From: Lachnospiraceae bacterium UBA1818
Lineage (GTDB): Bacteria > Bacillota > Clostridia > Lachnospirales > Lachnospiraceae
DNA length: 59,245 nt
Reading direction: 5' to 3'
NCBI GenBank assembly: GCA_904419285.1
Contig: CAJFQZ010000013.1
Span: forward strand, 1-59,245
The notes beneath the pieces are model-generated. The model was given only the letters and a program-made list of their open reading frames with translations, made no database searches and had not been told where the DNA came from. Of the stretch, positions 14,509 through 59,245 are shown in pieces. Every line of letters starts with the position of its first letter. Within the stretch, counting starts at the first letter, position 1. Position numbers and translations under genes: made by a program.

Positions 14509-16359
14509 ATGGAAAATAATAATTTTGATATACAGGAAGAATTGAAAAAACTGCCGGGGAGACCCGGCGTCTATATCATGCATGACGAGAAGGATAACAT
14601 CATCTATGTGGGGAAGGCGATCAGTCTGAAGAACCGTGTCAGACAGTATTTTCAGAGCAGCCGGAACAAAGGAGTCAAGATTGAACAGATGGTGACGCAT
14701 ATCCGGCGTTTTGAGTATATCGTGACGGACTCAGAGCTTGAGGCGCTGGTCCTGGAGTGTAATCTGATCAAGGAACACCGGCCGAAATACAATACCATGC
14801 TCATGGATGATAAGACATATCCGTTCATCAAAGTGACGACTAATGAACCATTTCCCAGAGTCATCCTTTCGCGGAAGATGCTGAAGGACAAGGCAAAATA
14901 TTTCGGACCCTACACCAGTGCGCAGGCAGTCAGGGATACGATCGATCTGATCCATAAGCTGTATCATGTCAGGAGCTGCAACAGGAATCTGCCCAGGGAC
15001 ACCGGGAAAGAGAGACCCTGCCTGAACTATCATATCAAGCAGTGCGATGCGCCCTGTCAGGGATATATCTCCCAGGAAGAGTACGGAAAATCGATCAATG
15101 AGGTGATCCGTTTCCTGAACGGGCACTATGACAGTATACTCAGCGAGCTGGAGAAAAAGATGAACGAGGCATCAGAGGCGCTGGAGTTTGAACGTGCGAT
15201 CGAGTATCGGGAACTGCTGAACAGTGTGAAAAAAGTAGCGCAGAAGCAGAAGATAACGGACTCCAGCGGCGAGGACAGGGATGTACTGGCAGTGGCGTCA
15301 GGAGAGGAAGATGCGGTCGTACAGGTATTCTTTATCCGGGGAGGACGTCTGATCGGCAGGGATCACTTTTATCTGCGGATCTCGAAAGGAGAGTCAAAGG
15401 GCAGTATTCTGGACAGCTTTATCAAACAGTATTATGCCGGTACGCCTTACATCCCGGGAGAACTGATGCTTCAGGAAGATGTGGAAGAGCGGGAACTCCT
15501 GGAGACGTGGCTCACAGCGAAGCGGGGACAGAAGGTTACGCTGCGGATACCGAAAAAAGGCACGAAGGAAAAGCTTGTGGAGCTGGCAGCGGAGAACGCC
15601 AGGCTTGTCCTTACCAAGGATAAGGAGCGCCTGAAGCGTGAAGAGGGGAGGACGATCGGAGCGGTGAAGGAGATCGCTTCGCTCCTCGGACTGGATGAGA
15701 TCACAAGGATGGAGGCATATGATATCTCCAACACAAACGGCTTTGAATCCGTCGGTTCCATGGTCGTGTATGAAAGAGGAAGACCGAAGCGGAATGATTA
15801 CAGAAAATTTAAGATCAAGGGGATCAAGGGCGCCGATGATTACGGCAGCATGAGAGAAGTGCTGACACGCAGATTTACCCACGGGCTGAAGGAGCGCCGG
15901 GAAAATAAGGAGCTGGGCAAATTTACGGTTTTCCCGGATCTGATCCTTATGGATGGAGGAAAAGGCCAGGTGAACGTAGCGCTTCAGGTGCTGGATGAGC
16001 TGCATCTGAACATTCCCGTATGCGGCATGGTGAAGGATGATTATCACAGGACAAGAGGGTTATACTACCATAATGAGGAGATCCCCATTGACAAGTCGTC
16101 GGAAGCGTTCCGCCTGATCACCAGGATCCAGGATGAGGCGCACCGTTTTGCCATTGAATATCACAGGCAGCTCCGCAGCAAAGGCCAGGTACACTCTATA
16201 CTGGATGATATCGACGGGATCGGCCCGGCCAGGAGAAAGGCGCTTATGCGCAGCTACTCAAGCCTTGACGCGATCCGGGAAGCGAGCGTGGAAGAGCTGG
16301 CAAAAATCCCTTCCATGAACGAAAAAGCCGCTGAATCGGTATACAACTTTTTTCATTAG
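14509..16359 (+). CDS. uvrC: excinuclease ABC subunit C
   Basis: UvrC makes both incisions around DNA lesions in nucleotide excision repair together with UvrA and UvrB. The 616 residues have the standard layout: GIY-YIG nuclease at the N-terminus ([18 protein letters not shown]), a cysteine-containing region ([14 protein letters not shown]), a UVR motif binding UvrB (~200-235), an RNase H-like nuclease domain ([21 protein letters not shown]) and terminal helix-hairpin-helix motifs ([13 protein letters not shown]). The start chosen is MENNNFDIQ; upstream codons run through a terminator. No good ribosome-binding site is seen, consistent with the close -10 box. The partner gene uvrB is interrupted at 55481 in this same window, which would compromise this pathway. 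Confidence 0.96.
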
Positions 16360-45026: not shown

Positions 45027-48000
45027 ATGAAGAAGCGCAGACTCAAACTGCTGTGCCTGTTTCTGACAGCCAGTATGACAGCACCGACTATACTTCAGTA
45101 TGTGCCGGGAAGCATGTCACTTCCGTACGAAGTTCAGGCTGCGGGCGCAGAGGACGCCGCTGAAAACGTTCAGGTTTCAGCGAGAGATGCATCAGACGGC
45201 ATCGATGACGCATGGACCCAGGATCCGGAGAGCGTATCCGGTTCCGGCGCGGTCTGTGCAGTGGAAGACGGATGGCTCCACCTGAAGTCCGATCCGTCCA
45301 ACGGGAACAATCCCGGTACAAAGCCGGCGATCTTTGTGAACCCGAACACCTTTGATTTCAGCCAGGAGGGATTCTTTGACTTTACGCTGAAATCCAACAA
45401 CGGAAACACAGGCCAGAATGACAGCGACCGGTTCGGCGTTTATCTCGGGTATGACACGGATCAGAACGGCATGTTTGTCGGCTATGACAATGGCGGATGG
45501 TTCTGGCAGAAGTACACCGGAGGAAGCGGAGACTGGTATCAGGGCTCCAGACACGCCGCTCCCGCACAGGGAGAAGAGGCAGCGGTACATATTGAGTGGA
45601 CTGCGGACCACAAGATGACGCTCACGCTGGATGGAGAGACCGTCTTTGAAAATGAGGACTTCTCCGGTATCGCAGACGTGCTCGGCACCCAGATCGCATT
45701 CAAGTGTGGAAGCTGGAACCAGAATACGACAGACGTTCTGGTGAAGGACATCCATTATACGGGACAGGCACAGGCAGCCGTCTATCCGGTGACCGGAAAA
45801 GTCCTGGATACACAGGGCAGCCCGATCGAGGGGGCAAAGGTGACCATAGGCGATACGACGGTTGAGACGGACGCAGAGGGAACCTATACCGTGGAGCTCC
45901 CTGACGGCACCTACACTGTCACAGTTGTAAAAGACGGCTATATGAACGGCAGCGGAAGCATCACTGTGAGCGGGCAGGAGGCATCCGTGGGCGATATCAC
46001 ACTGGACGTGGAGCCGGATATTGAGACTGAGACGCTGTCCACGGAGGACATGGATGTCTATGTATCCAAGACCTTCCCGAGTGTTGTGAAGTATGAGATG
46101 AAGGGCGGTCTGGAAGGAAAGACCTTCTACGGACAGACGGAAGCCATCAATACGGTTCGGATCAACGGCGTGGATATCCAGGTCGCACCGGAGGATGTGA
46201 AAGCAGAGTTCGACGGAACGACAGCGACCTATGTCATGACAGTGAAGAATGAGAAGAAACACATTGACGCTGAGATCACTGCAGAGCTGAAGGCAGAGGC
46301 GAACCAGCTGGCGTTCAATATCACGAAGATCGAAAATAAGCTTCAGGATCAGACGACCACCAACAAGTACGGGGACAAGGTGGAGACTTATCCGCTCCAG
46401 ACGATCGGGATCCCGAACCACAGCCTGATCTCTGTCAGGAGTACGCAGAGCGGCGCCAACTTAAAGGGCGCGGTCATGTCCTCCAATACACACAAGAGCG
46501 GAGATGAACTGATCCAGGTCAACGGAGACATGGGCTCTTATAATAATAGAGACTACATGTACGCGTTCCTTTCTACAGATGAGATGAGCGCCGGCATGTG
46601 GAGCAACTCCGAGCATGAGGGACGTACTGTTGCGGCGCCGGTATACGGCGGAAGCCAGAATACCCGTATCTATGCAACATCGGAAGAGCGGGACGGCTAT
46701 AAGACTATGGGACTTGCCAGCGCGGAGTGGTACTATCACCGCAACGTGACAGATTCCAAGGGCGTGCAGTACACAGTGACAGAGACAGAGATGCCTCAGT
46801 CCAAGATCGTGATCGCGGGAGACACGAACGAGGACGCCCAGGTCAACTGGCAGGACGGCGCCATCGCATTCCGTGATATCATGAACAATCCGTATAAGTC
46901 GGAGGAGGTGCCGGAACTGGTGGCATGGCGCATCGCCATGAATTTCGGCGGACAGGCACAGAACCCGTTCCTGACTACGCTGGATAACGTAAAGCGCGTG
47001 GCTCAGCATACAGACGGTCTGGGACAGTCCATTCTTCTGAAGGGATATGCAAGTGAAGGACATGACTCCGGGCATCCGGATTACGATAACATCGGCGAAC
47101 GGATGGGCGGAGCCGAAGATATGAACACTCTGATGGAGAAAGGCGCGGAGTACGGCGCACGGTTCGGCATCCATGTAAATGCCAGCGAGATGTATCCCGA
47201 GGCGAAGGCGTTCAGCGAGGAGCTGGTGAGAAGGAATTCCGCCGGAGCGCTGAGCTACGGCTGGAACTGGCTGGACCAGGGCATCGGCATCGATGGTATC
47301 TATGACCTGGCAAGCGGCGAGAGACAGGCACGTTTCGACGCCCTGAAGGAGAAGGTCGGAGACAATATGGATTTTGTCTATGTGGATGTATGGGGCAACC
47401 TGACTTCAGGAAACAGTGAAGACTCCTGGGAGACAAGAAAGCTGTCTGATATGATCACGGACAATGGATGGCGGATGACCACTGAGTGGGGTTCCGGAAA
47501 TGAATATGATTCTACCTTCCAGCACTGGGCGTGCGACCTGACCTACGGCGGCTATACCTCCAAGGGTGAGAACAGTGAGGTCATGCGCTTCCTGAGAAAC
47601 CACCAGAAAGACTCCTGGGTAGGCGATTACCCGAGCTACGGCGGCGTTGCCAACGCACCGCTCCTGGGCGGCTATAACATGAAAGACTTCGAGGGATGGC
47701 AGGGAAGGAACGACTACGACGCATACATCACGAACCTGTACACCCATGACCTGATGACCAAGTTCCTGCAGCACTACCAGGTAGTGAAGTGGGAGGACGG
47801 CGATCCGGTCCAGATGACAGATAATGGAGAAACATATGCCTGGACCCCGGAGAAAGAGATCACGCTGAAGGCAGATCCGAAGAAATCTTCCGCTGAGACG
47901 GACACAGTCGTTGTCACAAGAGGAAGCACGGATCCGAGCGACGTGGCATACCGCGACAGGACAGTGACCCTGAACGGCATCGTGATCTCCCAGGGATCTG

Positions 48001-51000
48001 TGACCCAGGGCGACAACACGAACGCCAAGGGAACCGAATCTTATCTGATCCCGTGGAACTGGGATTCTGAGACGGGTGACCAGGTGGCTTCCGAGGAAGA
48101 GAAGCTGTACCACTGGAACACACAGGGCGGCGAGACGACCTGGGAGCTTCAGGACAGCTGGAAGAACCTGACGGATGTGAAGGTGTACAAGCTGACAGAT
48201 CTCGGAAAGACCGAGGAGCAGACCATACCGGTGGTGGACGGCACGATCACCCTGACCGCAGAGGCGGAGACTCCGTATGTGGTATGCAAGGGCGATGAGG
48301 CGAACCTGGAGATCACCTGGAGCGAAGGCATGCATATCGTGGATGCGGGCTTCAACTCCGGAAACGACGGGCTGAACGAGTACTGGGAGAAATCCGGGGA
48401 AGGCACCGCGGAGATCGCAAAGAGCCAGTACAGCAATCCGATGCTGAAGATGGACGGCGAAGTTTCCATGACCCAGGAACTGACAGACCTCAAAGCAGGA
48501 GAGGAATACGCGGTATATGTGGGTGTGGACAACCGAAGCGGGGCGAAAGCATCCATGACGGTCAAAGCTGACGATAAAGTTCTTGATTCCAACTATACAG
48601 AAGAATCTATCGCAAAGAACTATGTCAAGGCTTACACACACAGCAATTCCAGCGCAACTGTGGATGGAACCAGCTATTTCCAGAACATGTACGTCTTCTT
48701 CACCGCACCGGAGAGCGGAACAGTGACGCTGACGCTTTCCAGAGAAGCGGGAGAAGGAAGCACCTATTTTGACGATATCCGTGTAGTTGAGTCCGAGATG
48801 GATGTCGTGAAGAAGGACGAGGACGGAAACGTTGTCGGAATGGAACAGGATTTCGAGAACAACGCACAGGGTATCTACCCGTTCGTGGTCGGCGGGATCG
48901 AGGGTGTGGAAGATAACCGTACCCACCTGTCCGAACTGCATGATCCGTATACGCAGGCAGGCTGGGATGTAAAGAAGATGGACGACGTACTTGACGGAAA
49001 CTGGTCCATTAAGACAAACGGGCTTGTACAGCGCAACGCACTTGTTTACCAGACAATCCCGCAGAACTTCCGTTTTGAACCGGGCAGAACTTACAAGGTA
49101 AGCTTTGATTATCAGGCGGGAAGCGACGGGACATATGGCGTGACGATAGGAGACGGAGAGTTTGAAGGCGGCACATCGCTTGAGACTCTGGATATGGCAA
49201 TGGGCGCTGATCAGGACGGACACTATGAGACCACAATCGTCGGCTCTGCTTCCGGGCAGACCTGGTTCGGCATCTATTCTACGGGAACGGCTCCGGATCT
49301 TCAGGGAACGAGCGGATCTGCTGCAAACTTCGGCGGATATCAGGACTTTGTACTGGATAATCTCAAGATCGAACTGGTAGACGAAGAGGTTACAGCAGAT
49401 GCTCTTCAGGCATTGATCGAGGAAGCGGAAACCGGCTATGACAAGACAGAATATCTTGACGCAGACTGGGCAGTATTCCAGAGCGCTCTGACCGATGCGA
49501 AGGTTGCCCTGAACAAGGACAAGCAGGATCAGAAACAGATAGAGGATGCTTACTACGCACTGAAAGCTGCCATGATGACCCTGGATACCGCATCCGGAAC
49601 AGAGGCGGACGATAAATACGATATTGCGTCTGACAAGTATACAGTCGAGGCGGGCAGCGCACAGCCGCAGTCCGGAAATGAGGGACCGGTCGAGTTCGCT
49701 CAGGATGGAAACGGAAGCACTCACTGGCATACAAGCTGGGGCGCCGATGTTGTAGAGGCAGACGGCAGCGGAGACGGCTGGTATCAGTTTAACTTCAGCG
49801 AACCGATGACCGTGAACGGAATGAGATATCTTCCGAGGTCAGGAGCAGCCAATGCAAACGGAAAGATTATCAAAGCGGATATCCTTGTCAGCAGCGATAA
49901 TGGCGCATCTTGGGAGACGGCTGTGAAAGACGCGGAATTCAGCACGACGACAATGTGGCAGAAAGTCAGCTTTGATGCAGTCGAGGGCGTTACAAATGTA
50001 AGGATCGTGGCGACTGAAACTGCGGGACAGTCGGCGGCAGAGGCGAACAAATATGTCTCAGCGGCAGAACTGCGTGTACTTCAGCCGGTCGAAGATCAGA
50101 CAGAGACTGCAGACAAATCCGCTCTTGAGGCGGCAGTCAGCGGGGCGGAAGGTCTGAACAGCGGCGATTATACAGAAGAGTCCTGGAAGACAGTAGAAGA
50201 AAAGCTGGCAGAGGCAAAGGCTGTGCTTGAAAAAGAGGATGCCACAGCATATGATATCGCACTTGCCCTTGCAAATCTGAACGACGCAGTTGCGGATCTT
50301 GAGAAATCCGAAAATCCGCAGCCGGGTGAAGAAATCTCTACGGCGGTCCTGGAATATGCGATCGAGCTTGCCGGCGGCGTCAATACAGACGGTGTCATTG
50401 AAACTGTAAAAGAGAACTTTGAGAACGCGCTCCAGAACGCACAGGACATTCTTGCAAAAGTTCAGTCCGGAGATGCGTCTGTGACACAGAACCAGGTGGA
50501 CAATGCATGGCGGAACCTGATCAAGGCGATGCAGTATATGGAGTTCAAGGAAGCCAACAAGGACGATCTGGCGAAGGTCATCGCTCTGGCGGAAGAGATG
50601 AACGGTAAACTGGATAAGTATCTTGACGAAGGAAAAGCAGCGTTTACAACAGCTCTTACAGAAGCAAAAGAGGTTTATGAAAACGAGATCGCGACTCAGG
50701 AAGAAGTAACCAGCGCATGGCAGAACCTGCTGGATGCGATGGCGAACATGATGCTCAAACCGGACAAGGGTCTGCTGGAAGATCTGATCGCACAGGCAGA
50801 AGGACTGAATGAGGCAGACTACGAGGCACAGAGTTTTGCAGTGATGCGCACAGCCCTGGCAGCGGCGAAAGAAGTATTCGACAATGTGGATGCAGATCAG
50901 GAAGAGATCGACGCATCTGCATCAGCACTGAAGGATGCGATCGCAAAACTGACGCCGGCAGTCGGTACAGATCAGTCAGGAAACGGCGGTCAGTCAGACA

Positions 51001-51221
51001 GCACCGGCGGAAGCAAGACTGAGGGACAGACAGCTGCATCTGCGGACAAGAACAGCAGTACTGCATCTGCAGGAAAGACGTCATCTACACAGAATTCCGG
51101 CTCTGCGGCAAAAGCGACAAAGACAGGCGATACTGCAAATGCACTTCCATTTGCGGCAGCGGCGGTAGCAGCGCTTGCAGCAGGAGCGGCGGTCCTTCTG
51201 AAGAAGAAAGAGGAAAACTAA
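45027..51221 (+). CDS. secreted, wall-anchored GH101 endo-alpha-N-acetylgalactosaminidase
   Basis: This 2064-residue surface enzyme should release core-1 disaccharide from serine/threonine-linked mucin O-glycans. Order: signal peptide (~1-39), LamG-like domain (~55-245), carboxypeptidase-regulatory-like domain (~250-325), and the GH101 beta-sandwich and barrel. Catalytic residues by alignment to the family are Asp787 in VYVDVWGN (nucleophile) and Glu820 in TTEWGSG (acid/base). Further modules are a FIVAR-like repeat (~1455-1521), an F5/8-type CBM32 domain (~1528-1688), another FIVAR (~1694-1761) and the shared triple FIVAR block (~1768-1978). It ends with sorting signal TKTGD (K2032), a hydrophobic stretch and KKKEEN. 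Own promoter and terminator. A second GH84 gene follows, so the two likely cooperate in mucin breakdown. Confidence 0.95.
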   Translation: MKKRRLKLLCLFLTASMTAPTILQYVPGSMSLPYEVQAAGAEDAAENVQVSARDASDGIDDAWTQDPESVSGSGAVCAVEDGWLHLKSDPSNGNNPGTKPAIFVNPNTFDFSQEGFFDFTLKSNNGNTGQNDSDRFGVYLGYDTDQNGMFVGYDNGGWFWQKYTGGSGDWYQGSRHAAPAQGEEAAVHIEWTADHKMTLTLDGETVFENEDFSGIADVLGTQIAFKCGSWNQNTTDVLVKDIHYTGQAQAAVYPVTGKVLDTQGSPIEGAKVTIGDTTVETDAEGTYTVELPDGTYTVTVVKDGYMNGSGSITVSGQEASVGDITLDVEPDIETETLSTEDMDVYVSKTFPSVVKYEMKGGLEGKTFYGQTEAINTVRINGVDIQVAPEDVKAEFDGTTATYVMTVKNEKKHIDAEITAELKAEANQLAFNITKIENKLQDQTTTNKYGDKVETYPLQTIGIPNHSLISVRSTQSGANLKGAVMSSNTHKSGDELIQVNGDMGSYNNRDYMYAFLSTDEMSAGMWSNSEHEGRTVAAPVYGGSQNTRIYATSEERDGYKTMGLASAEWYYHRNVTDSKGVQYTVTETEMPQSKIVIAGDTNEDAQVNWQDGAIAFRDIMNNPYKSEEVPELVAWRIAMNFGGQAQNPFLTTLDNVKRVAQHTDGLGQSILLKGYASEGHDSGHPDYDNIGERMGGAEDMNTLMEKGAEYGARFGIHVNASEMYPEAKAFSEELVRRNSAGALSYGWNWLDQGIGIDGIYDLASGERQARFDALKEKVGDNMDFVYVDVWGNLTSGNSEDSWETRKLSDMITDNGWRMTTEWGSGNEYDSTFQHWACDLTYGGYTSKGENSEVMRFLRNHQKDSWVGDYPSYGGVANAPLLGGYNMKDFEGWQGRNDYDAYITNLYTHDLMTKFLQHYQVVKWEDGDPVQMTDNGETYAWTPEKEITLKADPKKSSAETDTVVVTRGSTDPSDVAYRDRTVTLNGIVISQGSVTQGDNTNAKGTESYLIPWNWDSETGDQVASEEEKLYHWNTQGGETTWELQDSWKNLTDVKVYKLTDLGKTEEQTIPVVDGTITLTAEAETPYVVCKGDEANLEITWSEGMHIVDAGFNSGNDGLNEYWEKSGEGTAEIAKSQYSNPMLKMDGEVSMTQELTDLKAGEEYAVYVGVDNRSGAKASMTVKADDKVLDSNYTEESIAKNYVKAYTHSNSSATVDGTSYFQNMYVFFTAPESGTVTLTLSREAGEGSTYFDDIRVVESEMDVVKKDEDGNVVGMEQDFENNAQGIYPFVVGGIEGVEDNRTHLSELHDPYTQAGWDVKKMDDVLDGNWSIKTNGLVQRNALVYQTIPQNFRFEPGRTYKVSFDYQAGSDGTYGVTIGDGEFEGGTSLETLDMAMGADQDGHYETTIVGSASGQTWFGIYSTGTAPDLQGTSGSAANFGGYQDFVLDNLKIELVDEEVTADALQALIEEAETGYDKTEYLDADWAVFQSALTDAKVALNKDKQDQKQIEDAYYALKAAMMTLDTASGTEADDKYDIASDKYTVEAGSAQPQSGNEGPVEFAQDGNGSTHWHTSWGADVVEADGSGDGWYQFNFSEPMTVNGMRYLPRSGAANANGKIIKADILVSSDNGASWETAVKDAEFSTTTMWQKVSFDAVEGVTNVRIVATETAGQSAAEANKYVSAAELRVLQPVEDQTETADKSALEAAVSGAEGLNSGDYTEESWKTVEEKLAEAKAVLEKEDATAYDIALALANLNDAVADLEKSENPQPGEEISTAVLEYAIELAGGVNTDGVIETVKENFENALQNAQDILAKVQSGDASVTQNQVDNAWRNLIKAMQYMEFKEANKDDLAKVIALAEEMNGKLDKYLDEGKAAFTTALTEAKEVYENEIATQEEVTSAWQNLLDAMANMMLKPDKGLLEDLIAQAEGLNEADYEAQSFAVMRTALAAAKEVFDNVDADQEEIDASASALKDAIAKLTPAVGTDQSGNGGQSDSTGGSKTEGQTAASADKNSSTASAGKTSSTQNSGSAAKATKTGDTANALPFAAAAVAALAAGAAVLLKKKEEN

Positions 51222-51270
51222 ATAATAACTGAACAGCCGACGGCGGCATAGGCCGTACGGTGACAGGAAA

Positions 51271-51300
51271 GACAGGATGCCCGGCATCCTGTCTTTTTTT
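51271..51300 (+). terminator. terminator after GH101
   Basis: Perfect 10-bp stem GACAGGATGC / GCATCCTGTC with a 3-nt loop, followed by seven T residues. It separates the GH101 and second GH84 transcripts. Confidence 0.92.
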
Positions 51301-51391
51301 ACATAAATATATTAAAAAAGTGTTTCTTTCTGGTAAAAATTACTATATTATTACAAATAGGGAAACAAAAAAAGACAGGAGGAGAAAGCTT

Positions 51392-54300
51392 ATGAAAAAC
51401 AGAGCGGTAAAAACAGTCCTTGCCGTGTCCATGGCTGCCGCAGTCGTGATGGGGAACGCATCGCCGGCAGCCCAGGTCCAGGCGGCAGGCACTGAAAGCG
51501 CGGGGGCAGAAAGCAGTGCCGAACTGATTCCGGTCCCTAAGGAAATGAGCGCGGACGGCACGGAGCTGACAGTGACCGATGCCGTGAATATCGCAGGAGC
51601 AGAGGAAGCGGATGCAGATGCGGTCAGAGATCTCAGAGAGTTCCTAGATGCGAATGGAATCACGGTAAACGAGCAGGCGGATGAGGCGGATACGACTTTT
51701 ATCCTGGGAGAAGCAGACGATGAGATCCCTGCACTTGAGGATGCCAAGGACAGGCTTTCGATGAGCGGGGCGGACGGTCTCGGAGATGAGGGATATGTCC
51801 TGAATGTGGATCCCGGGGATTCTGCAGGCGGAACTATAGTGATCGAGGGAAAAGACGGGGACGGAACTTTCTACGGAGTGCAGACCCTCCGGCAGCTGGC
51901 GGAAGTAAGAGACGGGAAAACTGTCATTGCATCTGCAGAGATCACGGATGAGCCCACGATGTCTGTTCGGGGAACGATCGAGGGCTTTTACGGGAATCCG
52001 TGGAGCCATGAGGACCGGATCAGCCAGATTGAATTTTACGGCGATATGAAGATGAACACTTATATCTATGCGCCTAAGGATGATCCGTATCACAGGGAGC
52101 AGTGGAGAGAGCCCTATCCCTCATCTGAGATGGAGCGCATGCAGGAGCTCATTGATGTGTCAAAGGAAAATAAAGTCGATTTTGTCTTCGCCCTCTCACC
52201 GGGGATCGACATCCAGTTTGACGGCGATGCCGGAGAGAGTGACTATCAGGCGCTGGTGGAAAAATGTCAGTCCCTGTACGACATGGGAGTGCGCAGCTTT
52301 GCGATCTTCTTTGACGATATCAGTAACAAGGACGGAGTAAAACAGGCAGAACTGCTCAACAGATTTAATAAGGAATTTATCCAGGAAAAGGGCGATATCA
52401 AGCCGTTGATCACTGTGCCTACAGAATATGATTCAAACGCTATGGGCGTTGCGAGCACAGTAAGCGCGTATACGACAGATTTTGCAGGCACACTGGATCC
52501 CAGTATAAAAGTACTGTGGACAGGCACTGCGGTCGTTCCGGAAGGGATCGATGTGGCAAATGCACAGCAGGTGAAGTCAGTCTACGGCGACAGGATGGGA
52601 ATCTGGTGGAATTATCCATGTACGGATTACATTCAGAATAAACTGGGGCTGGGTCCGGTCTACGGCCTGGATAAAGGGCTGGAAGACGAGGTGGATTTCC
52701 TGGTCCTCAACCCGATGGAGCATGCGGAGCTTTCGAAGATCACGCTTGCTACCGGCGCGGATTTCGGATGGAACACGGCAGCGTACGAGTATCAGGATTC
52801 TTTTGCCGCCTCGATCGATGTGCTGTACGGTGAGCTGGCACCATACATGTATACATTTGCAGATCACTCGACCAGACTGGTAGCAGGCTGGGCGTCTACA
52901 GGAAGAGCGGACGCACCGGAAGTCAGGGAACTGATGGATCTTATGATGTCCAAAGTGGCGAAAGGCGAGGATGCTTCAGAGGAGATCAGCGCGCTGAACG
53001 AAGAATTTGACAGTATGATACTGGCTGCTGATACACTGAAGGCTGAGCTTCCCGCAGACCAGCTCTCTCACTGCAGCGGCAATCTGGATAAGCTGAAAGC
53101 TCTCGGAGAGAATGACAAGACGGCGCTCCAGCTCTTTGTAGAAAAGAATGCGGATAACAGAAATGAAGATAAGATACAGACTCTGACAGCTCAGCTTCAG
53201 GGAAATCTGTCCTCACTGCAGTCCGGTAAGCTGGTGTCGGAGCAGACGGCGCTTGCATTTATCACGGATGTGCTGGACTATAATATTGAACCGAGCGCAG
53301 CGTTCAAAGTGTCTACCACTTTTGCAGCGCCGGGCGAGGAGATTCAGCTTACAAATGAAAGCTCTCTCTCATCCACAAATCTCGAGTGGACCATGAAGGG
53401 GGCGGACATTGAAACAAGCACGGAGGAAAATCCGGTCATTTCTTACGCAGAAGAGGGAATCTACACGATCAGCCTCAAAGCCTCCAATAGGAACGGTGAG
53501 GATGTGGCAGTGAAAACGAATATCATCACTGTGTCGGAGGAGGCAAAGGCAGAGCAGACGAACCTTGCGCTGAACAAAACGGCGACGGCAAGCGGATATA
53601 CCGCATCAAACGAGGCTCCGGGAAAAGCGGTCGACGGAATTACCAGCACAAAATGGTGTACTACAAATTATGGCCTTCAGTGGCTTAGGATCGATCTCGG
53701 AAAGACAGGAACGATCACGGAGATCATTATCAGTCACGCTGAGATGGGAGGAGAAGGATCCTCGCTGAACACGCAGGCTTACCGCGTAGAGGTGAGCAAT
53801 GACGGGCAGAACTGGCAGGAAATCTTAAGGGTGGAGAACAATTCTTCAGGTCTGACAGAAGACGCTGTCCCGGTTACTCAGGGAAGATATGTGAGGCTTC
53901 TGATCGATGAGCCGACCCAGGGCGGCGACAGTGCAGCGCGTATTTACGAAATGGAAGTCAGAGGACTGGATAAGGAAATCACCCTGCCGCCGGTTTATAC
54001 GGAAAAGATCTCCACTGCAGTGCTCGAATATGCGATCGAGCTTGCGGAGAGAGCAGATACAGACGGCGTAGTGGCCGCTGTGAAGGAAAACTTTGACACA
54101 GCTCTGAAAAATGCCCGGGATGTTCTCGCTCAGGTTGAGTCGGGCAGTGCGGAGGTGACGCAGTCAGACGTGGACCTTGCATGGCAGAATTTGATCAAAG
54201 CGATGCAGTATCTGGATTTCAAAGCAGGGGACAAGTCGGACCTTGAAAAAGTGATCGCGCTGGCAGATGAGATGGACAGCAGGCTGGACGACTATCTGGA

Positions 54301-54898
54301 CGCAGGAAAAGAGGCATTTACATCGGCTCTTGCCACTGCCAAAGAAGTATATGCAGATGGAAACGCGATGCAGGAGGAAGTGAACAGTGCATGGCAGAAT
54401 CTGCTCAATGCGATGGCAAATCTGAGGCTGATGCCGAATAAGGATCTTCTTGAACAGCTGATCATTCAGGCAGAAAATCTGAATGAATCGGATTATGAGG
54501 TGCAGAGCTTTGCAGTGATGCGGTTTGCTCTGGCAGCTGCGAAGGAAGTATATGACAATGAGAATGCAACTCAGGATGAGGTGGATGCCTCTGTTTCCAC
54601 ACTGAGGAATGCTGTTGCGAAGCTGACACTGTCCGGCAGCGAACAGGCCGGAACTACCGGCAGCACGGGTACTTCAGGTATCACGCAGAATAGTCAGACG
54701 CAGGCTGGCATCACAGCAGATAAGAACAGGACTTCTGACAATACCTCTGCAGCAGGAAAGACAGCTGTATCACAGAATTCTAATGCCAAATCTGTCAAGA
54801 CAGGAGATACGGCGAATGTACTTCCTCTTGCGGCGGCAGCAGCAGCTGCAGCGGTGCTGGCAGCAGGCGTTCTGGCATTCAGGAGAAAGAGGGGATAG
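51392..54898 (+). CDS. second secreted, wall-anchored GH84 beta-N-acetylglucosaminidase
   Basis: A 1168-residue paralogue of the enzyme at 10362. Order: signal peptide (~1-32), N-terminal GH84-associated domain (LIPVPKEMSADGTELTVTD), GH84 barrel with RGTIEGFYGNPW and TYIYAPKDDPYHR, and catalytic Asp308-Asp309 in FAIFFDDISN. A helical region, a PKD-like beta domain (~633-716), a CBM32 module (~723-858, NLALNKTATASGY ... LQWLRIDLG), three FIVAR-like repeats (~871-1077) and sorting signal VKTGD (K1136), hydrophobic segment and RRKRG follow. The start is the ATG after AGGAGGAG at 51377; upstream in-frame codons run from inside the GH101 terminator. It differs from the first GH84 copy mainly by having the PKD domain. 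Confidence 0.93.
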   Translation: MKNRAVKTVLAVSMAAAVVMGNASPAAQVQAAGTESAGAESSAELIPVPKEMSADGTELTVTDAVNIAGAEEADADAVRDLREFLDANGITVNEQADEADTTFILGEADDEIPALEDAKDRLSMSGADGLGDEGYVLNVDPGDSAGGTIVIEGKDGDGTFYGVQTLRQLAEVRDGKTVIASAEITDEPTMSVRGTIEGFYGNPWSHEDRISQIEFYGDMKMNTYIYAPKDDPYHREQWREPYPSSEMERMQELIDVSKENKVDFVFALSPGIDIQFDGDAGESDYQALVEKCQSLYDMGVRSFAIFFDDISNKDGVKQAELLNRFNKEFIQEKGDIKPLITVPTEYDSNAMGVASTVSAYTTDFAGTLDPSIKVLWTGTAVVPEGIDVANAQQVKSVYGDRMGIWWNYPCTDYIQNKLGLGPVYGLDKGLEDEVDFLVLNPMEHAELSKITLATGADFGWNTAAYEYQDSFAASIDVLYGELAPYMYTFADHSTRLVAGWASTGRADAPEVRELMDLMMSKVAKGEDASEEISALNEEFDSMILAADTLKAELPADQLSHCSGNLDKLKALGENDKTALQLFVEKNADNRNEDKIQTLTAQLQGNLSSLQSGKLVSEQTALAFITDVLDYNIEPSAAFKVSTTFAAPGEEIQLTNESSLSSTNLEWTMKGADIETSTEENPVISYAEEGIYTISLKASNRNGEDVAVKTNIITVSEEAKAEQTNLALNKTATASGYTASNEAPGKAVDGITSTKWCTTNYGLQWLRIDLGKTGTITEIIISHAEMGGEGSSLNTQAYRVEVSNDGQNWQEILRVENNSSGLTEDAVPVTQGRYVRLLIDEPTQGGDSAARIYEMEVRGLDKEITLPPVYTEKISTAVLEYAIELAERADTDGVVAAVKENFDTALKNARDVLAQVESGSAEVTQSDVDLAWQNLIKAMQYLDFKAGDKSDLEKVIALADEMDSRLDDYLDAGKEAFTSALATAKEVYADGNAMQEEVNSAWQNLLNAMANLRLMPNKDLLEQLIIQAENLNESDYEVQSFAVMRFALAAAKEVYDNENATQDEVDASVSTLRNAVAKLTLSGSEQAGTTGSTGTSGITQNSQTQAGITADKNRTSDNTSAAGKTAVSQNSNAKSVKTGDTANVLPLAAAAAAAAVLAAGVLAFRRKRG

Positions 54899-55208: not shown

Positions 55209-55481
55209 ATGGATCATTTTGAATTGGTATCAGAATATAAACCTACCGGCGATCAGCCCGAAGCGATCGAACAGCTGGTCAAAGGGTTCAAGGAAGGCAA
55301 CCAGTGCCAGACACTTCTCGGTGTCACCGGTTCCGGCAAGACCTTCACGATGGCAAATGTCATCCAGCAGTTAAATAAACCGACGCTGATCATTGCGCAC
55401 AATAAGACTCTGGCGGCGCAGCTCTACGGCGAGTTCAAGGAATTTTTCCCGAACAATGCCGTAGAGTATTTCGTCTCCTAG
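55209..55481 (+). pseudogene. uvrB: uvrB, 5' fragment interrupted after codon 90
   Basis: The first 90 codons of excinuclease subunit B are perfect in sequence: [20 protein letters not shown], Walker [29 protein letters not shown] and NNAVEYFVS. UvrB normally continues YYDYYQPEAYVP, the beta-hairpin region that clamps damaged DNA, for a total of ~660 residues. Here the reading frame runs from TCC into TAG at 55479-55481 and the sequence becomes AT-rich and unrelated from there. Every catalytic helicase motif after motif Ia is missing. The remainder of uvrB presumably lies beyond the right window edge, on the far side of the insertion. Confidence 0.92.
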
Positions 55482-55520
55482 TGTGCCGGAGTCGGAAAAT
55501 GAGGTATATTTAGTGCTTTT
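55482..55520. repeat. element terminal repeat R1 at the uvrB junction
   Basis: A 39-bp sequence starting TGTGC and containing GAGGTATATTT. It begins at the base after the artificial uvrB stop codon. It matches R2 (55893-55931) ungapped, 30 of 39 positions, in the same orientation. Position and TG start suggest the end of a mobile element. Confidence 0.75.
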
Positions 55521-55545
55521 TTGTGCTGTTCAGTCCAGATTTTGT

Positions 55546-55602
55546 GGACAGAATGATACTAAACGGACTGGATGATACCAGGCGGACAAAATGATTTTGT
55601 GA
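55546..55602. repeat. three 19-bp iterons next to the junction
   Basis: Three head-to-tail copies at 55546-55564, 55565-55583 and 55584-55602 share GGACNRRATGAT. Repeated binding sites just inside a terminus are typical of DDE transposons with multiple transposase sites (IS21 or Tn7-like ends); no transposase gene is visible here. Confidence 0.7.
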
Positions 55603-55745
55603 CTTTTTGAAGAATAAATTCGGCAATAGAAATTTTATTGTATAATGACGGAAAAGCAAGTATAATTATATTAAAATTGTTTAATAAGTAGTAAAATAGG
55701 TTTTATAAACAGTATTGACGTATTATATGGAATAGAGAAGATAAT
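55603..55745. other. AT-rich stretch without a gene
   Basis: Sequence between the iterons and the broken reading frame. It holds no open frame of useful length. A TTGACG at 55715-55720 could be a -35 box for the degraded gene that follows. Confidence 0.5.
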
Positions 55746-55892
55746 ATGAGGCATAATGAAAGAGATTTCTAATTTATTGTAGAGCACTATATTACAAAAT
55801 AGTTGAATGAGAATATTTCAAAACTAGAAGGAACGGTTTTAGTAATCGTAAAGAAAGCATATAACGAGAATAAGGTAGGCTTTTGCATGTAA
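55746..55892 (+). pseudogene. degraded reading frame cut off by R2
   Basis: From ATG 55746 one frame reads protein-like sequence: MRHNERDF, stop, FIVEHYITK, stop, LNENISKLEGTVLVIVKKA, then YNENKVGFCM, ending in TAA at 55890-55892. The two internal stops (TAA 55770-55772 and TAG 55800-55802) could each come from a single C-to-T change in a Gln codon. The final TAA is formed at the junction with R2, as the uvrB TAG is at R1. I do not recognise the protein. Random AT-rich sequence could mimic this, so it is tentative. Confidence 0.3.
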
Positions 55893-55931
55893 TGTGCAGA
55901 GTGCGAAAAACGAGGTATATTTGGTACTTTT
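55893..55931. repeat. element terminal repeat R2
   Basis: Second, diverged copy of R1 (30/39 identical, no gaps), same orientation, also starting TGTGC and containing GAGGTATATTT. It begins immediately after the stop codon of the degraded frame. No iterons follow it. Confidence 0.75.
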
Positions 55932-56098
55932 CAATGGTTTGTGACCTTTTACAAAGTAAACTCCAAATAGAAGTTGCTTTTAAAAGAATTGATAGTCTTT
56001 TATATTCTATTTATGAAACAGTTGTTATAGAATATTAAATAAGCTTTATTTTTTTAATAAATTGAACCATATTATGAATGAAAAGGAGTCAATAGAAA
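55932..56098 (+). promoter_or_regulatory. leader of the four-gene island operon
   Basis: AT-rich non-coding sequence up to the first island gene. A possible promoter is TTGATA (55989-55994) with TATGAA 17 bp downstream (56012-56017). The Shine-Dalgarno AAGGAG lies near 56083, 10 bp before the TTG start. A 16-codon frame at 56074 has no ribosome-binding site. No obvious precursor-peptide gene is seen. Confidence 0.35.
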
Positions 56099-56875
56099 TT
56101 GAAGAGAAAGTTTTTTTCTGGTAATGTTCCATGCGGAGCAAGTTGTTCATACTGCTTTGCTAAATGGCAAAATGTAGAGTCGAAGCACCCAATATTTGCT
56201 GTTGAAAAGCTAATCAAATCAGATGATGATTCTGTGATAATTTACCCATGTTGTGATAGTGAGTTTTTTGAACAAAGTATTCCTTTAAAAGATATTTTAA
56301 AATTAAAAAATCGATTTATTTATGTAAGTATTTCTACTAAACAAATGATAAATACGAATCAGTTAAATTATTTAAAATTGTTGGATAATGAATTAAAACG
56401 CGAAAATCGAGGTTTTGTAAAATTAAGTGTTTCGTTTTCTAACAAATATTATATTGATAGGTTAGAAAAGGGAACAACAACTTATAGGCAAAGAGTAAAT
56501 TTGCTTGAACAAGTACAGAATATGGGGATATACACGAGTGCAATTATAAAACCTATTTTGCCGTTTATTACTTTAACAGAGTATAAAGAAATAATAGATG
56601 ATTTGGCTTTTATAAAAAAGTTTGTGTTGGGAGATTTATATGTCGACATTAACTCCAGATTTTATAAAGAATACATAGAGGGCAAATACGATGTGTCTAT
56701 AAGAAAAGTTGCTTGGCTTAACGAACCAGAGTATTGGAATGTGATTGAAGACGTTGAAAAGAAACGCCAGCTATATGAATATATAGAAAAAAAAAGTTGT
56801 GAATATTTTGAATCGGATAACAATTTAATTTTATCCTATATTCATAAAAAAATGGGGGACTTTATTGATGAGTAG
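56099..56875 (+). CDS. short radical-SAM protein of the island operon
   Basis: A 258-residue protein with the canonical radical-SAM iron-sulfur motif CX3CX2C near its N-terminus (Cys12, Cys16, Cys19 in NVPCGASCSYCFAKW). A second feature is YPCCDSEFFEQ (~52-63). The remainder fits a partial TIM barrel with alternating strands and helices. No SPASM, B12 or other auxiliary domain is seen, so it would be a minimal enzyme. The only sensible start is TTG at 56099, ten bases after AAGGAG. Substrate is unknown. It overlaps the next gene by 8 bp. Codon use is strongly AT-biased compared with genes to the left, indicating transfer. Confidence 0.8.
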   Translation: MKRKFFSGNVPCGASCSYCFAKWQNVESKHPIFAVEKLIKSDDDSVIIYPCCDSEFFEQSIPLKDILKLKNRFIYVSISTKQMINTNQLNYLKLLDNELKRENRGFVKLSVSFSNKYYIDRLEKGTTTYRQRVNLLEQVQNMGIYTSAIIKPILPFITLTEYKEIIDDLAFIKKFVLGDLYVDINSRFYKEYIEGKYDVSIRKVAWLNEPEYWNVIEDVEKKRQLYEYIEKKSCEYFESDNNLILSYIHKKMGDFIDE

Positions 56876-57932
56876 CTTTTTTGATACAGTCATATTGTTT
56901 CTTTTAGGTTTAGATTCTGTTAGAATGATAGTCGCTATTTTGGGTATTGTAAAACCAACTTCAAAATATTCATGGCTGATTTATGGGCGTTATGATATTA
57001 ATATTATGGAAAGGGCTTTATTGCAATTAGGATATAGCGTTGATCTCGCAAAAGAAATTACGGATGATATTTCGGATTTAAGCAGAAAAATTAAGGATAA
57101 TTCTGGAATTAACGAAGGAAATGCAAGTGAAAAGCTTATCATATTGTTAAGTAGATACTTTACTTATTTTGAAAAACCGATAAATTATGGTGGAAAATCA
57201 ATCTCAAAAAGTTTATATTATATTAACACAATGGAAATATCACATAATGAAAATGATTTAAATGAATTAACCAGTATCATGCTGAATTTAATGATAGACA
57301 ATAATATAGATATGCCAGATTTCATTATTGTTCCTAAGGGGGGAAATCTGCTTTTTGCACAAGCAGTGGCTAAATGTCTAAATGCGGAACTAATTGTGGT
57401 AAAGGATAGTGAAGATAAGTCATCAGTCATTGCCCCTGGACAAGCCCTTTCTGAAGCGGTAATTCGAGTTAATTTTGAAGGGTCGTATTCAGTATTGAAT
57501 AAAAGCAAAAATAGTAAGAAAAAACTCATTGGATACCTAGTTGATTGTAACACATCTGGAGGAACACAGTTGTTATCTACATTAAAAAAATTTAATGAAA
57601 TGATAGATGCGTGTAAAATGAATATTTTAAAACCTCAAAAAGCATTCGTTTTATTTAGAGCAGATAGAGATAAGGGGGATATTGATCAAAAGTTTGGTGA
57701 ATTAAATTGTAAATTATACAGATATTTTGATCTTGATGAGCAGTCGAAAGGTCAAATTTATAATGCAACTATTGATGCAAAAACTAGGAAAGAAAAAGAA
57801 AGTATTGATAAACCTAGTTGTGATGTGTTAAGTTACTACATAAAAGAAGATAGAGAATTGGTTGATAATATTATTGCAGAATTAAAAAGAAATAAGAAAT
57901 TTTATTATGGAGGTAATACAAATGAGCATTAA
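56868..57932 (+). CDS. phosphoribosyltransferase-like protein of the island operon
   Basis: A 354-residue protein whose C-terminal two thirds fit the type I PRTase fold. The PRPP-binding motif is LIGYLVDCNTSGGTQL, with the loop at Asp226-Thr233 (family pattern is hydrophobic strand, acidic pair, TG/S-G-T). A further strand pattern is FIIVPKGGNLLFAQAVAKCL, resembling the PPi-loop region. One member of the usual acidic pair is replaced by Cys227, so activity may be altered. The N-terminal ~150 residues are helical and not recognised; the extreme N-terminus is hydrophobic. The ATG at 56868 overlaps the radical-SAM gene end, and its own end overlaps the next gene by 11 bp. Confidence 0.65.
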   Translation: MSSFFDTVILFLLGLDSVRMIVAILGIVKPTSKYSWLIYGRYDINIMERALLQLGYSVDLAKEITDDISDLSRKIKDNSGINEGNASEKLIILLSRYFTYFEKPINYGGKSISKSLYYINTMEISHNENDLNELTSIMLNLMIDNNIDMPDFIIVPKGGNLLFAQAVAKCLNAELIVVKDSEDKSSVIAPGQALSEAVIRVNFEGSYSVLNKSKNSKKKLIGYLVDCNTSGGTQLLSTLKKFNEMIDACKMNILKPQKAFVLFRADRDKGDIDQKFGELNCKLYRYFDLDEQSKGQIYNATIDAKTRKEKESIDKPSCDVLSYYIKEDRELVDNIIAELKRNKKFYYGGNTNEH

Positions 57933-58326
57933 TGAAGAATGGAGTAAAGTTAAAGAATTTCAAATCAAATTTGGACATCCCGTTTCCGAAAAGCCTATCA
58001 TGATGGATGAAAGTAGGGCAAAAAAACGATACACATGGATGTTGGAAGAGATCAATGAGTTTATAGAGGCTCCGGATATTGTAGAACAGGCTGATGCGAT
58101 GATTGACTTGATTTATTTTGCATTAGGTACACTTGTTGAAATGGGAATAAAACCAGAAAAGCTTTTTAGCGTTGTACACAACGCTAATATGAGTAAATTA
58201 TGGAATGACGGGAAACCGCATTATGGGGTGGATGGAAAAACTATAAAACCTAAAACATGGAAAGATCCTCATTCAGAATTAGAAAACATCATAAATAAAA
58301 TGTTAGAGGAGAGTGAAAATAGATGA
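57922..58326 (+). CDS. all-alpha NTP pyrophosphohydrolase (PRA-PH/DR2231-like) of the island operon
   Basis: A 134-residue enzyme of the MazG-related all-alpha NTP pyrophosphatase group. Signature features are FGHPVSEKP, the metal-binding LEEINEFIEA (Glu42, Glu43, Glu46), EQADAMIDLIYFALG (Glu55, Asp58, Asp62), and the tail VHNANMSKLWNDGKP ... DGKTIKPKTW. These match the phosphoribosyl-ATP pyrophosphohydrolase-like family that includes the dUTP-cleaving DR2231 and phage homologues. It should hydrolyse a nucleoside triphosphate or related pyrophosphate to a monophosphate. The ATG at 57922 follows GGAGG inside the previous gene; the next gene starts at an ATGA overlap. Confidence 0.85.
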   Translation: MSINEEWSKVKEFQIKFGHPVSEKPIMMDESRAKKRYTWMLEEINEFIEAPDIVEQADAMIDLIYFALGTLVEMGIKPEKLFSVVHNANMSKLWNDGKPHYGVDGKTIKPKTWKDPHSELENIINKMLEESENR

Positions 58327-58868
58327 AAAATGTTATAGCCGAAAATTATTTGTGCTTTCCGGCTCTGTTAGAAATGATTATAAATGATGCATTTGATATG
58401 AATATTAGTCAATTTGAGATTGCAGAGTATTTTGGAATTGTTGTACCTTGTGGATATAAAAGGATTATTAATAATCAATCGGAGAGTTCATCTTCATTAG
58501 ATTTTGGCATTCATATTGATCTGGAAAAGATCCAAGAATTTTTTGAAAAAAATAGAATAAAATTTAAAATTAATTATTACGAAATAAATAGAGTTTCCGA
58601 TATTTGCTTTGCGGATTTTATCAGAAAACATTTAAGGCATAGAGAATATCTTATATGTAGTTATAGTTATGGAATACTATATGGAAAAGAATATGCTAAT
58701 GAGTTGGGGCATGTTAGTCTAATTAGCGAGGTAAATGTAAATGATGAGGTTATAATATATGATCCAGGACCGGATGGCTATGGGAAGAAACTTGTAAATG
58801 AGTTGCATTTATATGATGCCATCCAATATAGACATGGCGGAATTTATACGTTTTCTATTGACTCATAA
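58323..58868 (+). CDS. C39/papain-like cysteine-peptidase-fold protein of the island operon
   Basis: A 181-residue protein with the layout of peptidase C39-like or BtrH-N-like papain-fold domains. A Cys at residue 11 at the start of a helix (ENYLCFPALLEMI) is followed far downstream by GHVSLISEV with a His and then IIYDPGPDGYG with the Asp. This order (Cys, His, Asp) is that of the family. It could be a protease cleaving a leader peptide or a transferase of the BtrH type. No signal peptide or transmembrane segment is present, so it is not the ABC-exporter-linked C39 form. It starts with ATGA overlap to the preceding gene. Family assignment is by motif order only. Confidence 0.55.
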   Translation: MKNVIAENYLCFPALLEMIINDAFDMNISQFEIAEYFGIVVPCGYKRIINNQSESSSSLDFGIHIDLEKIQEFFEKNRIKFKINYYEINRVSDICFADFIRKHLRHREYLICSYSYGILYGKEYANELGHVSLISEVNVNDEVIIYDPGPDGYGKKLVNELHLYDAIQYRHGGIYTFSIDS

Positions 58869-59133
58869 AATGTTGGATCCACAAAGTTAATTAGAGTTTC
58901 CTAGAGTTTTGGCGGGAACATAGGTAGCGGAAAGCATTGAAAATAATTAGGTTTAGAGTAGCTTTATTATTTTGAAGAAAGAATTTGTAATGGGGAAATA
59001 TTAACTTAATAGAATAATATCTCTTGGATAATATGGCTGGTTGTTTAGATAAAAGGCAACCGGCTTTTCTTATTATAGTGCATAGTTTTGGTTGCTTGTC
59101 CATGATATAATAGGACAGGAAGTGAAGAAGTAT
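58869..59133. other. intergenic AT-rich spacer after the island operon
   Basis: No open frame of note. It contains the operon terminator at 59035-59070 and a TATAAT at 59106-59111 that could serve the following partial gene, though no good -35 box is visible. Confidence 0.5.
59035..59072 (+). terminator. terminator after the island operon
   Basis: GGCTGGTTG at 59035-59043 pairs with CAACCGGC near 59057-59064 (one G-T pair) and is followed by TTTTC. Confidence 0.6.
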
Positions 59134-59245
59134 ATGAGGCAAAGTGATGTTATCAACCTAAAGAAAAATGAGAATTACTATTATATAAGTAAACGAGTAC
59201 TTCTTCTTAACATATTTGAAAAAGTACATTTAGTTAAAATAAGAA
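59134..59245 (+). CDS. 5' end of an unidentified island gene (cut by window edge)
   Basis: From ATG 59134 the frame stays open to the window end for 37 codons, reading MRQSDVINLKKNENYYYISK and then RVLLLNIFEKVHLVKIR. A GGAAGTGAAGAAG site precedes the ATG, and a TATAAT lies just upstream. The composition is the same AT-rich type as the four preceding genes. Its identity cannot be told from the fragment. Confidence 0.55.
   Translation, partial: MRQSDVINLKKNENYYYISKRVLLLNIFEKVHLVKIR

Follow-up and report, generated by a model that had tools for sequence, protein, structure and literature searches.

The window analysed here is the whole of contig CAJFQZ010000013.1 of Lachnospiraceae bacterium UBA1818 (G000:C13, 59,245 bases). 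It ends in an AT-rich island that interrupts the housekeeping gene uvrB and is itself cut off at position 59245, its continuation being seen only in a second contig (L010). At the left end of this island, which is a mobile element, four overlapping genes form one transcription unit. They encode, in order, a putative radical S-adenosylmethionine (SAM) protein, a phosphoribosyltransferase (PRTase)-like protein, a pyrophosphohydrolase of the MazG/DR2231 type and a protein without family match. We are inclined, tentatively, to understand this operon as anti-phage cargo acting on nucleotides, and to propose it as a candidate new defence operon. The anti-phage role is suggested because the genes lie in a defence-like cargo slot and adjoin a Lamassu system; nucleotide chemistry is suggested because of the protein families that the operon appears to combine. 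Should the operon indeed defend its host against phages, the association of radical SAM and PRTase chemistry would be added to nucleotide-based immunity.

A four-gene operon in a mobile element at uvrB

The four genes follow one another head to tail, and with the ATG at 57922 as the start of gene 3 their junctions overlap by exactly 8, 11 and 4 bp, as had been described in an earlier reading of this DNA made from its letters (below, the original prediction). That ATG has GGAGG upstream, an alternative in-frame ATG being present at 57907, and a purine-rich stretch lies 5' of each of the four gene starts. A terminator-like hairpin had also been noticed behind gene 4: it proves to have 12 pairs and a T tail, stands 166 nt past the stop codon and folds with clear stability (z -3.2; equally stable shuffles 0 of 200). 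The pattern scan returned two sites against 1.1 expected (standard deviation 1.0), the other being a 6-pair hairpin inside gene 1. The sequence that immediately follows gene 4 is structurally unremarkable (z 0.26), and the promoter scan, with 21 sites against 22.7 expected, was uninformative. Because of the overlaps and of the terminator, we take the four genes to be a single operon at the left end of the element (Table 1).

Table 1. Features of the window, and cargo recognised at the same place in related elements
Feature	Position	Strand	Description
uvrB 5' fragment, 90 codons	55209..55481	+	ends in an in-frame TAG supplied by the first bases of the island
Conserved left terminus of the mobile element, ~144-156 bp	55479..55634	+	starts TAGTGTGCCGG; immediately behind codon 90 of uvrB in six further genomes
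Degenerate second terminus copy	55890..55931	+	81% over 43 positions
Gene 1 (P0001, 258 aa, TTG start)	56099..56875	+	radical SAM, SplB/SPL-like (candidate); C12xxxC16xxC19
Gene 2 (P0002, 354 aa)	56868..57932	+	PRTase-like (probable); hydrophobic N-terminus; loop D226-C-N-T-S-G-G-T
Gene 3 (P0003; 134 aa from ATG 57922, 139 aa from ATG 57907)	57922..58326	+	MazG/DR2231-like pyrophosphohydrolase; EExxE and ExxD intact
Gene 4 (P0004, 181 aa)	58323..58868	+	no family match; C11, H130, D147 in papain/C39-like order
Intrinsic terminator behind the operon	59035..59065	+	pattern scan and fold stability
Start of small ORF preceding lmuA	59134..59245	+	cut by contig end; complete at L010:3709-3942
Slot in G629			AbiTi and AbiTii (PADLOC); ApeA-type HEPN (Pfam)
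Slot in G028			PDC-M69A/B/C (PADLOC)
Slot in G035			PDC-S05/RhuM and PDC-M28C (PADLOC)

The island had been recognised as AT-rich and as placed in a housekeeping gene, and both points hold: its G+C content is 0.298 over the last 3.77 kb (55479-59245; 30%) against 0.520 for positions 1-55478 (52.0%), where 207 windows of 3,767 nt give 0.492 as their lowest value, and the gene is uvrB, interrupted after codon 90 (55478). The 90-codon piece is probably the host's own, since it is 89% and 87% identical to its counterparts in two genomes of the same genus (G609 and G618); a third one, G595, gives 77%. The remaining part of uvrB opens another contig of the assembly (C4) at about codon 57, and its codons 57-90 match the first piece poorly (73% over codons 63-88). 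This second uvrB is a mosaic whose two parts join at codon 90/91: codons 57-90 agree with G595 at 100 of 102 bases, and from codon 91 onward the agreement falls abruptly to 800 of 930, equal to that with G609 (800) and close to that with G618 (792).

Complete examples in other genomes help to understand this arrangement. In G028, G035 and G191 the uvrB 5' fragment is immediately followed by the element terminus, and a complete uvrB stands 3.1-4.0 kb further on, its 5' end being a diverged duplicate (189, 225 and 194 bases agree in ungapped comparison over 261 bases). It therefore appears that elements of this site bring with them a replacement 5' end which restores uvrB; for the UBA1818 element, not closed in this assembly, we infer the right end. 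A ~25-kb element of G013 occupies nearly the same place of uvrB with a different terminus, and has tyrosine-integrase-type open reading frames (ORFs; partial domains) beside a complete uvrB. Three of the insertions at this site, those in L073 (3548-6699), L074 (5325-9309) and L077 (9473-12567), measure just 3.1-4.0 kb. Their ORFs include no recognisable site-specific recombinase, although L074 holds a fragment that reads as transposase-like; they may be decayed or non-autonomous elements, or exchanged cargo. In the literature searched (mostly titles and the beginnings of abstracts, subscription papers being mostly outside), uvrB was not found described as a site for such elements.

The same element is present in L010 (CAMMNR010000082.1), a contig of an uncultured Clostridium metagenome-assembled genome which matches the window from 55426 onward. 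There are 12 mismatches over 3,820 positions, 10 of them in the first 41 bases, which belong to uvrB, and two in 3,767 element bases. Since the element is near-identical while the uvrB flank clearly differs, we have one element in two different uvrB backgrounds, that is, a recent transfer. The bin in which L010 was placed (G1025) has an ordinary uvrB without adjacent element and was rejected as its true host; L010 is probably misbinned. When close relatives of gene 1 were sought in genome contigs, only L010 and an Acinetobacter locus (L011) were returned, the latter rejected as a relative of the four-gene set with a match of only 28 residues.

After the four genes, L010 carries lmuA, lmuC and lmuB, and behind these begins a ParA-type gene, the DNA of which is 95% identical to a gene of G629 that is an AAA/ParA protein by Pfam. 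PADLOC recognises Lamassu at L010:3911-7369 (LmuA E 3e-31, LmuC 2.9e-27, LmuB 2.2e-96); LmuA, LmuB and LmuC occur together in these downstream genes of L010, and not among the four genes. The small ORF that begins at the end of the window overlaps the predicted start of lmuA.

A DNA search with the L010 element gave matches in 30 of 397 genomes of the family, UBA1818 included, mostly to the ParA end or to the Lamassu genes. Its left end is matched in eight genomes besides UBA1818; six of these were fetched, and in all six the terminus comes after the uvrB 5' fragment, at codon 90, the matches of G181 and G067 lying outside the six inspected. After the constant end of 144-156 bp, related elements diverge into different cargo. 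PADLOC was run on ten ORFs from four of the slots (G629, G028, G035 and G1099), and three of the four contain genes listed there (Table 1), the PDC entries being candidates and not proven systems. Because of these three positive slots and of Lamassu, what lies behind the terminus looks like a defence-cargo slot, with exchangeable genes that appear mostly defence-like where scanned. Whatever the operon itself does, the slot with its constant end of ~144 bp would make it easy to gather exchangeable defence cargo across this bacterial family.

Several further observations concern this site. The element family inserts exactly after uvrB codon 90 and starts TAGT[GC]TG (window 55479-55634; L071, L072, L073, L074, L076 and L077). 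The degenerate second terminus copy lies inside the island, ~170 bp 5' of the operon, and could be the trace of an earlier element end or of insertions stacked on one another. Two terminus copies are seen in G104 (L076), ~8 kb apart (6935-7067 and 14787-14905), one beside the uvrB fragment and the other without it; beyond the uvrB-adjacent copy, L076 has genes reading like RhuM, a two-component system and an ATP-binding cassette transporter. On the other side, before uvrB, two genes at 45027-54898 encode very large proteins, of 2064 and 1212 aa, whose sequences suggest secreted host-glycan glycosidases.

The four proteins and their relatives

Gene 3 is the most readily placed. Its score against PF01503 (PRA-PH/MazG), 68.8 bits for a cut-off of 21.3, and its intact EExxE...ExxD motif (residues 47-63 of the 139-aa form) identify it, at the level of family, as a MazG/DR2231-like pyrophosphohydrolase, in keeping with the original prediction; its nearest solved structures are 3nl9 (2e-20) and DR2231 (4e-9). 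Relatives occur in 331 of 50,697 phage records and in 46 of 72,556 plasmid records. Three of their neighbourhoods were read: two hold ribonucleotide reductase genes, the third both a thymidylate synthase and a dihydrofolate reductase. Because these neighbours serve the synthesis of deoxynucleoside triphosphates (dNTPs), the evidence points to a role of gene 3 in deoxynucleotide metabolism. In Parabacteroides distasonis (NZ_OY725790.1; L128 691-5977), a ThyX-type thymidylate synthase, an AAA ATPase, a HIT protein, the gene 3 relative and a dihydrofolate reductase stand in a row.

Gene 1 shares with P0005, its relative in G013, a CxxxCxxC motif at residues 12-19 (C12, C16, C19), which is common to the radical SAM superfamily at large. 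The best curated families for both proteins are those of the spore photoproduct lyase (SPL), Rv2578c and PA0069 types, all below cut-off: with the SPL family PF20903, gene 1 reaches 22.4 bits for a cut-off of 27 (21.4 in the genome search) and is shorter, 258 aa against a model of 338 positions. It also matches a PHROG of unknown function (4e-7). SPL structures are found at E 7e-4 with a profile built from P0001 and P0005, and hhalign aligns this profile with seven same-class SPL proteins over residues 91-239 with a probability of 83%, a comparison with one target whose E-value is not database-scale. A forced full alignment brings C52-D53 of gene 1 near the ATSD segment of SPL, the catalytic cysteine of that enzyme being C141; the default alignment covers only residues 91-239. 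These matches, weak but consistent, agree with the radical SAM assignment of the original prediction and make gene 1 an SplB/SPL-like protein, a candidate only as an SPL proper.

The PRTase-like nature of gene 2, also proposed there, is probable on weak evidence. The protein has only chance-level matches in Pfam and PHROGs, with no Pfam PRTase among them, while NCBIfam and PADLOC give no match at all. For its relative P0006 there is a slight match to an orotate-PRTase-like model, at E 0.0015 (18.3 of 115 bits). The AlphaFold model, built on two sequences, is poor (pLDDT 41.9, core 50-56). Foldseek nevertheless finds with the core of this low-confidence model 70 matches in the Protein Data Bank (PDB) at E<=0.001, and 43 of the best 50 are named PRTases (orotate, adenine and others), the other seven (JW0458, HP1257, PurR, UMP synthase) being what we take to be PRTase-fold proteins; template-modelling scores are low (<=0.31 by query length). 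The phosphoribosyl pyrophosphate loop is present as DCNTSGG[TS] in both P0002 and P0006, without the acidic pair of classic PRTases, and both N-termini are strongly hydrophobic (mean Kyte-Doolittle index 2.2 and 2.0 over 19 residues).

Gene 4 keeps only part of what had been read into it. The residues C11, H130 and D147 do follow the papain-like order; the proposed C39/papain fold is no more than a possibility. Pfam, NCBIfam, PHROGs and PADLOC give no family match beyond chance-like ones, and no C39 model among them; a PDB sequence search yields chance matches or nothing; structure prediction failed (pLDDT 35.7); and hhalign against 25 C39_2 sequences gives a probability of 1.5%, borderline in that 4 of 200 shuffles score as high. 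A proven C39 peptidase is thus rejected on the failed fold, the hhalign value and the missing PDB match, and gene 4 is possibly a papain-like hydrolase or acyltransferase. Five weak matches (E 8.5e-4 to 0.008) are ascribed to chance, three lying in stop-containing frames and two in longer ORFs that look unrelated.

The original prediction had proposed to look for the four-gene order in unrelated genomes. It was not found there, and only the radical SAM and PRTase pair recurs, once. Among 298 other genomes of the family, G013 alone has a relative of gene 2 (P0006), the match in G052 (E 2.4e-4), which we ascribe to chance, lying within an ORF of 479 aa that appears to encode a protein of dGTPase type. 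In G013 the two genes are adjacent in the opposite order, PRTase then radical SAM, without genes 3 and 4 beside them; P0005 is 41% identical to gene 1 and P0006 36% to gene 2. The conserved unit, as these genomes present it, is thus the pair, which recurs independently in one other genome. G013 has, elsewhere, a 61% identical relative of gene 3 (L081 7367-7849, G013:C4), beside a gene that reads as polysaccharide-type; its presence may be due to chance or to a functional link. The two-sequence profile A2, run in 392 genomes of the order and 398 of the phylum, samples that partly overlap, returned the UBA1818 genome only. Plasmids and phages gave no match for genes 1, 2 and 4, nor plasmids for P0006, and viral contigs none for any of the four genes or for alignments A1 and A2. 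The claim that no named system has this set stands: none does in PADLOC, NCBIfam, Pfam or PHROGs, and none is described in the literature searched.

A candidate function and its alternatives

We may now sketch how such an operon would work as anti-phage cargo. The four genes would be carried at the left end of a ParA-bearing element inserting at uvrB codon 90, presumably integrative and conjugative (no search for transfer genes was made). Genes 1 and 2, the latter possibly held at the membrane, would form the conserved core, and would either produce a modified base or nucleotide or detect one. Gene 3 would cut down the corresponding (d)NTP pool, and thereby supply the core with monophosphates or else shield the host. 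Gene 4 would contribute a fourth function, perhaps that of a hydrolase or acyltransferase of the papain type. The defence role, the nucleotide product, the order of steps and the part of gene 4 are all proposals, drawn from families and neighbourhood.

A number of observations weigh against this reading. Only one element has all four genes together, so that calling them a system rests on that element and one related pair. In G013 the pair has rpsF on one side and a surface-protein gene on the other, and no defence gene could be recognised nearby in the ORF list, on which PADLOC was not run. Against the defence families of PADLOC the four genes give no more than short motif matches, and gene 4 has no credible relative in the 298 other genomes of the family. 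PDB sequence searches with the two-sequence alignment A2 and with P0006 returned no PRTase, and the loop of gene 2 lacks the second acidic residue, which makes catalysis doubtful. As for the slot, that of G1099 (L072) has no PADLOC match, and those of L074 and L076 (genomes G191 and G104) lie outside the PADLOC scan.

Because the pair occurs by itself in G013, in the opposite order, one has to consider that only genes 1 and 2 make a functional unit, genes 3 and 4 being hitch-hikers or modulators added in this element, and relatives of gene 3 are indeed widespread in the phage and plasmid records where genes 1 and 2 were not found. We regard this as a serious possibility, if a rather unlikely one: all junctions overlap within one operon, and G013 itself carries, at another place, the 61% identical relative of gene 3. 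Less likely in our view is a module for the upkeep of nucleotides and DNA, combining SPL-type repair, a PRTase-like salvage enzyme or sensor and a dNTP-sanitising MazG, which would help the element or its host survive DNA damage and have no anti-phage function. The SPL-like match of gene 1 would fit, as would the DR2231-like character of gene 3, with relatives beside thymidylate and ribonucleotide-reduction genes; gene 1 however remains under the SPL cut-off and is shorter than the model, and the scanned slots mostly hold PADLOC-listed cargo.

The hydrophobic N-terminus common to both PRTase-like proteins, and the abortive-infection genes (AbiT, Lamassu) found in the same slot of this and related elements, would suit an abortive-infection or toxin-antitoxin unit in which a membrane-held PRTase-like protein is the toxic effector and the others control it. 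With no toxin or antitoxin family matched by any of the four genes in Pfam, NCBIfam, PHROGs or PADLOC, we find this distinctly improbable. Lowest in our estimation, and very doubtful, comes the biosynthesis of a small molecule or peptide, in which a radical SAM maturase and a C39-like protease or acyltransferase would yield a nucleotide-derived product for competition or signalling. The Cys-His-Asp order of gene 4 and its borderline C39 profile score speak for it; against it, gene 4 has no C39 family match, no transporter was recognised among the island ORFs, the original prediction saw no precursor peptide (no systematic search for one was made), and gene 3, probably also gene 2, look like nucleotide enzymes.

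Comparison with known systems

Seen as anti-phage cargo, the operon invites comparison first with viperins, which make 3'-deoxy-3',4'-didehydro-nucleoside triphosphates (ddhNTPs). With the prokaryotic viperins (pVip) gene 1 shares a radical SAM domain in a defence setting and a similar CxxxCxxC stretch; the match, however, spans only 20-30 residues, far below the family cut-off, and gene 1 was rejected as a viperin (NF038283, 15.7 bits against 180; pVip E 0.0019 over 20 residues). It is tempting to go further and imagine a radical SAM protein and an atypical, possibly membrane-anchored PRTase-like protein as the centre of an immune system not yet described, one that would produce a new modified nucleotide or detect such a nucleotide, with the dNTP pool under the control of a MazG-type enzyme. 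This would be a second radical SAM route to antiviral nucleotides besides viperin, an extension that we hold to be quite improbable as it stands. Proteins of the SPL/SplB type (Rv2578c, PA0069) are nearer, as the best families of gene 1 and P0005, alignable over residues 91-239 of P0001; gene 1 differs from them in its sub-cut-off scores, its shorter length and its PRTase-like partner.

PRTases of conflict systems and mobile elements, which are described in PMC5512222 as carrying a characteristic DD motif and for which nucleotide production or sensing is proposed there, resemble gene 2 in placing a PRTase-like domain on a mobile element, and differ from it in that motif, which is D-C in gene 2 and its relative. 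Gene 3 has the family and the catalytic motifs of the MazG/DR2231-like enzymes (3nl9, DR2231), among which MazG is listed in PMC13092281 as a predicted and unvalidated defence domain; the partners in the three neighbourhoods are dNTP-synthesis or phage genes, and not radical SAM or PRTase genes. Finally Lamassu, described in PMC10586767 as SMC-like and as probably working through abortive infection, is a neighbour of the operon, directly downstream in the same element and in the same cargo slot, although a terminator divides the two and the four genes match no Lamassu model.

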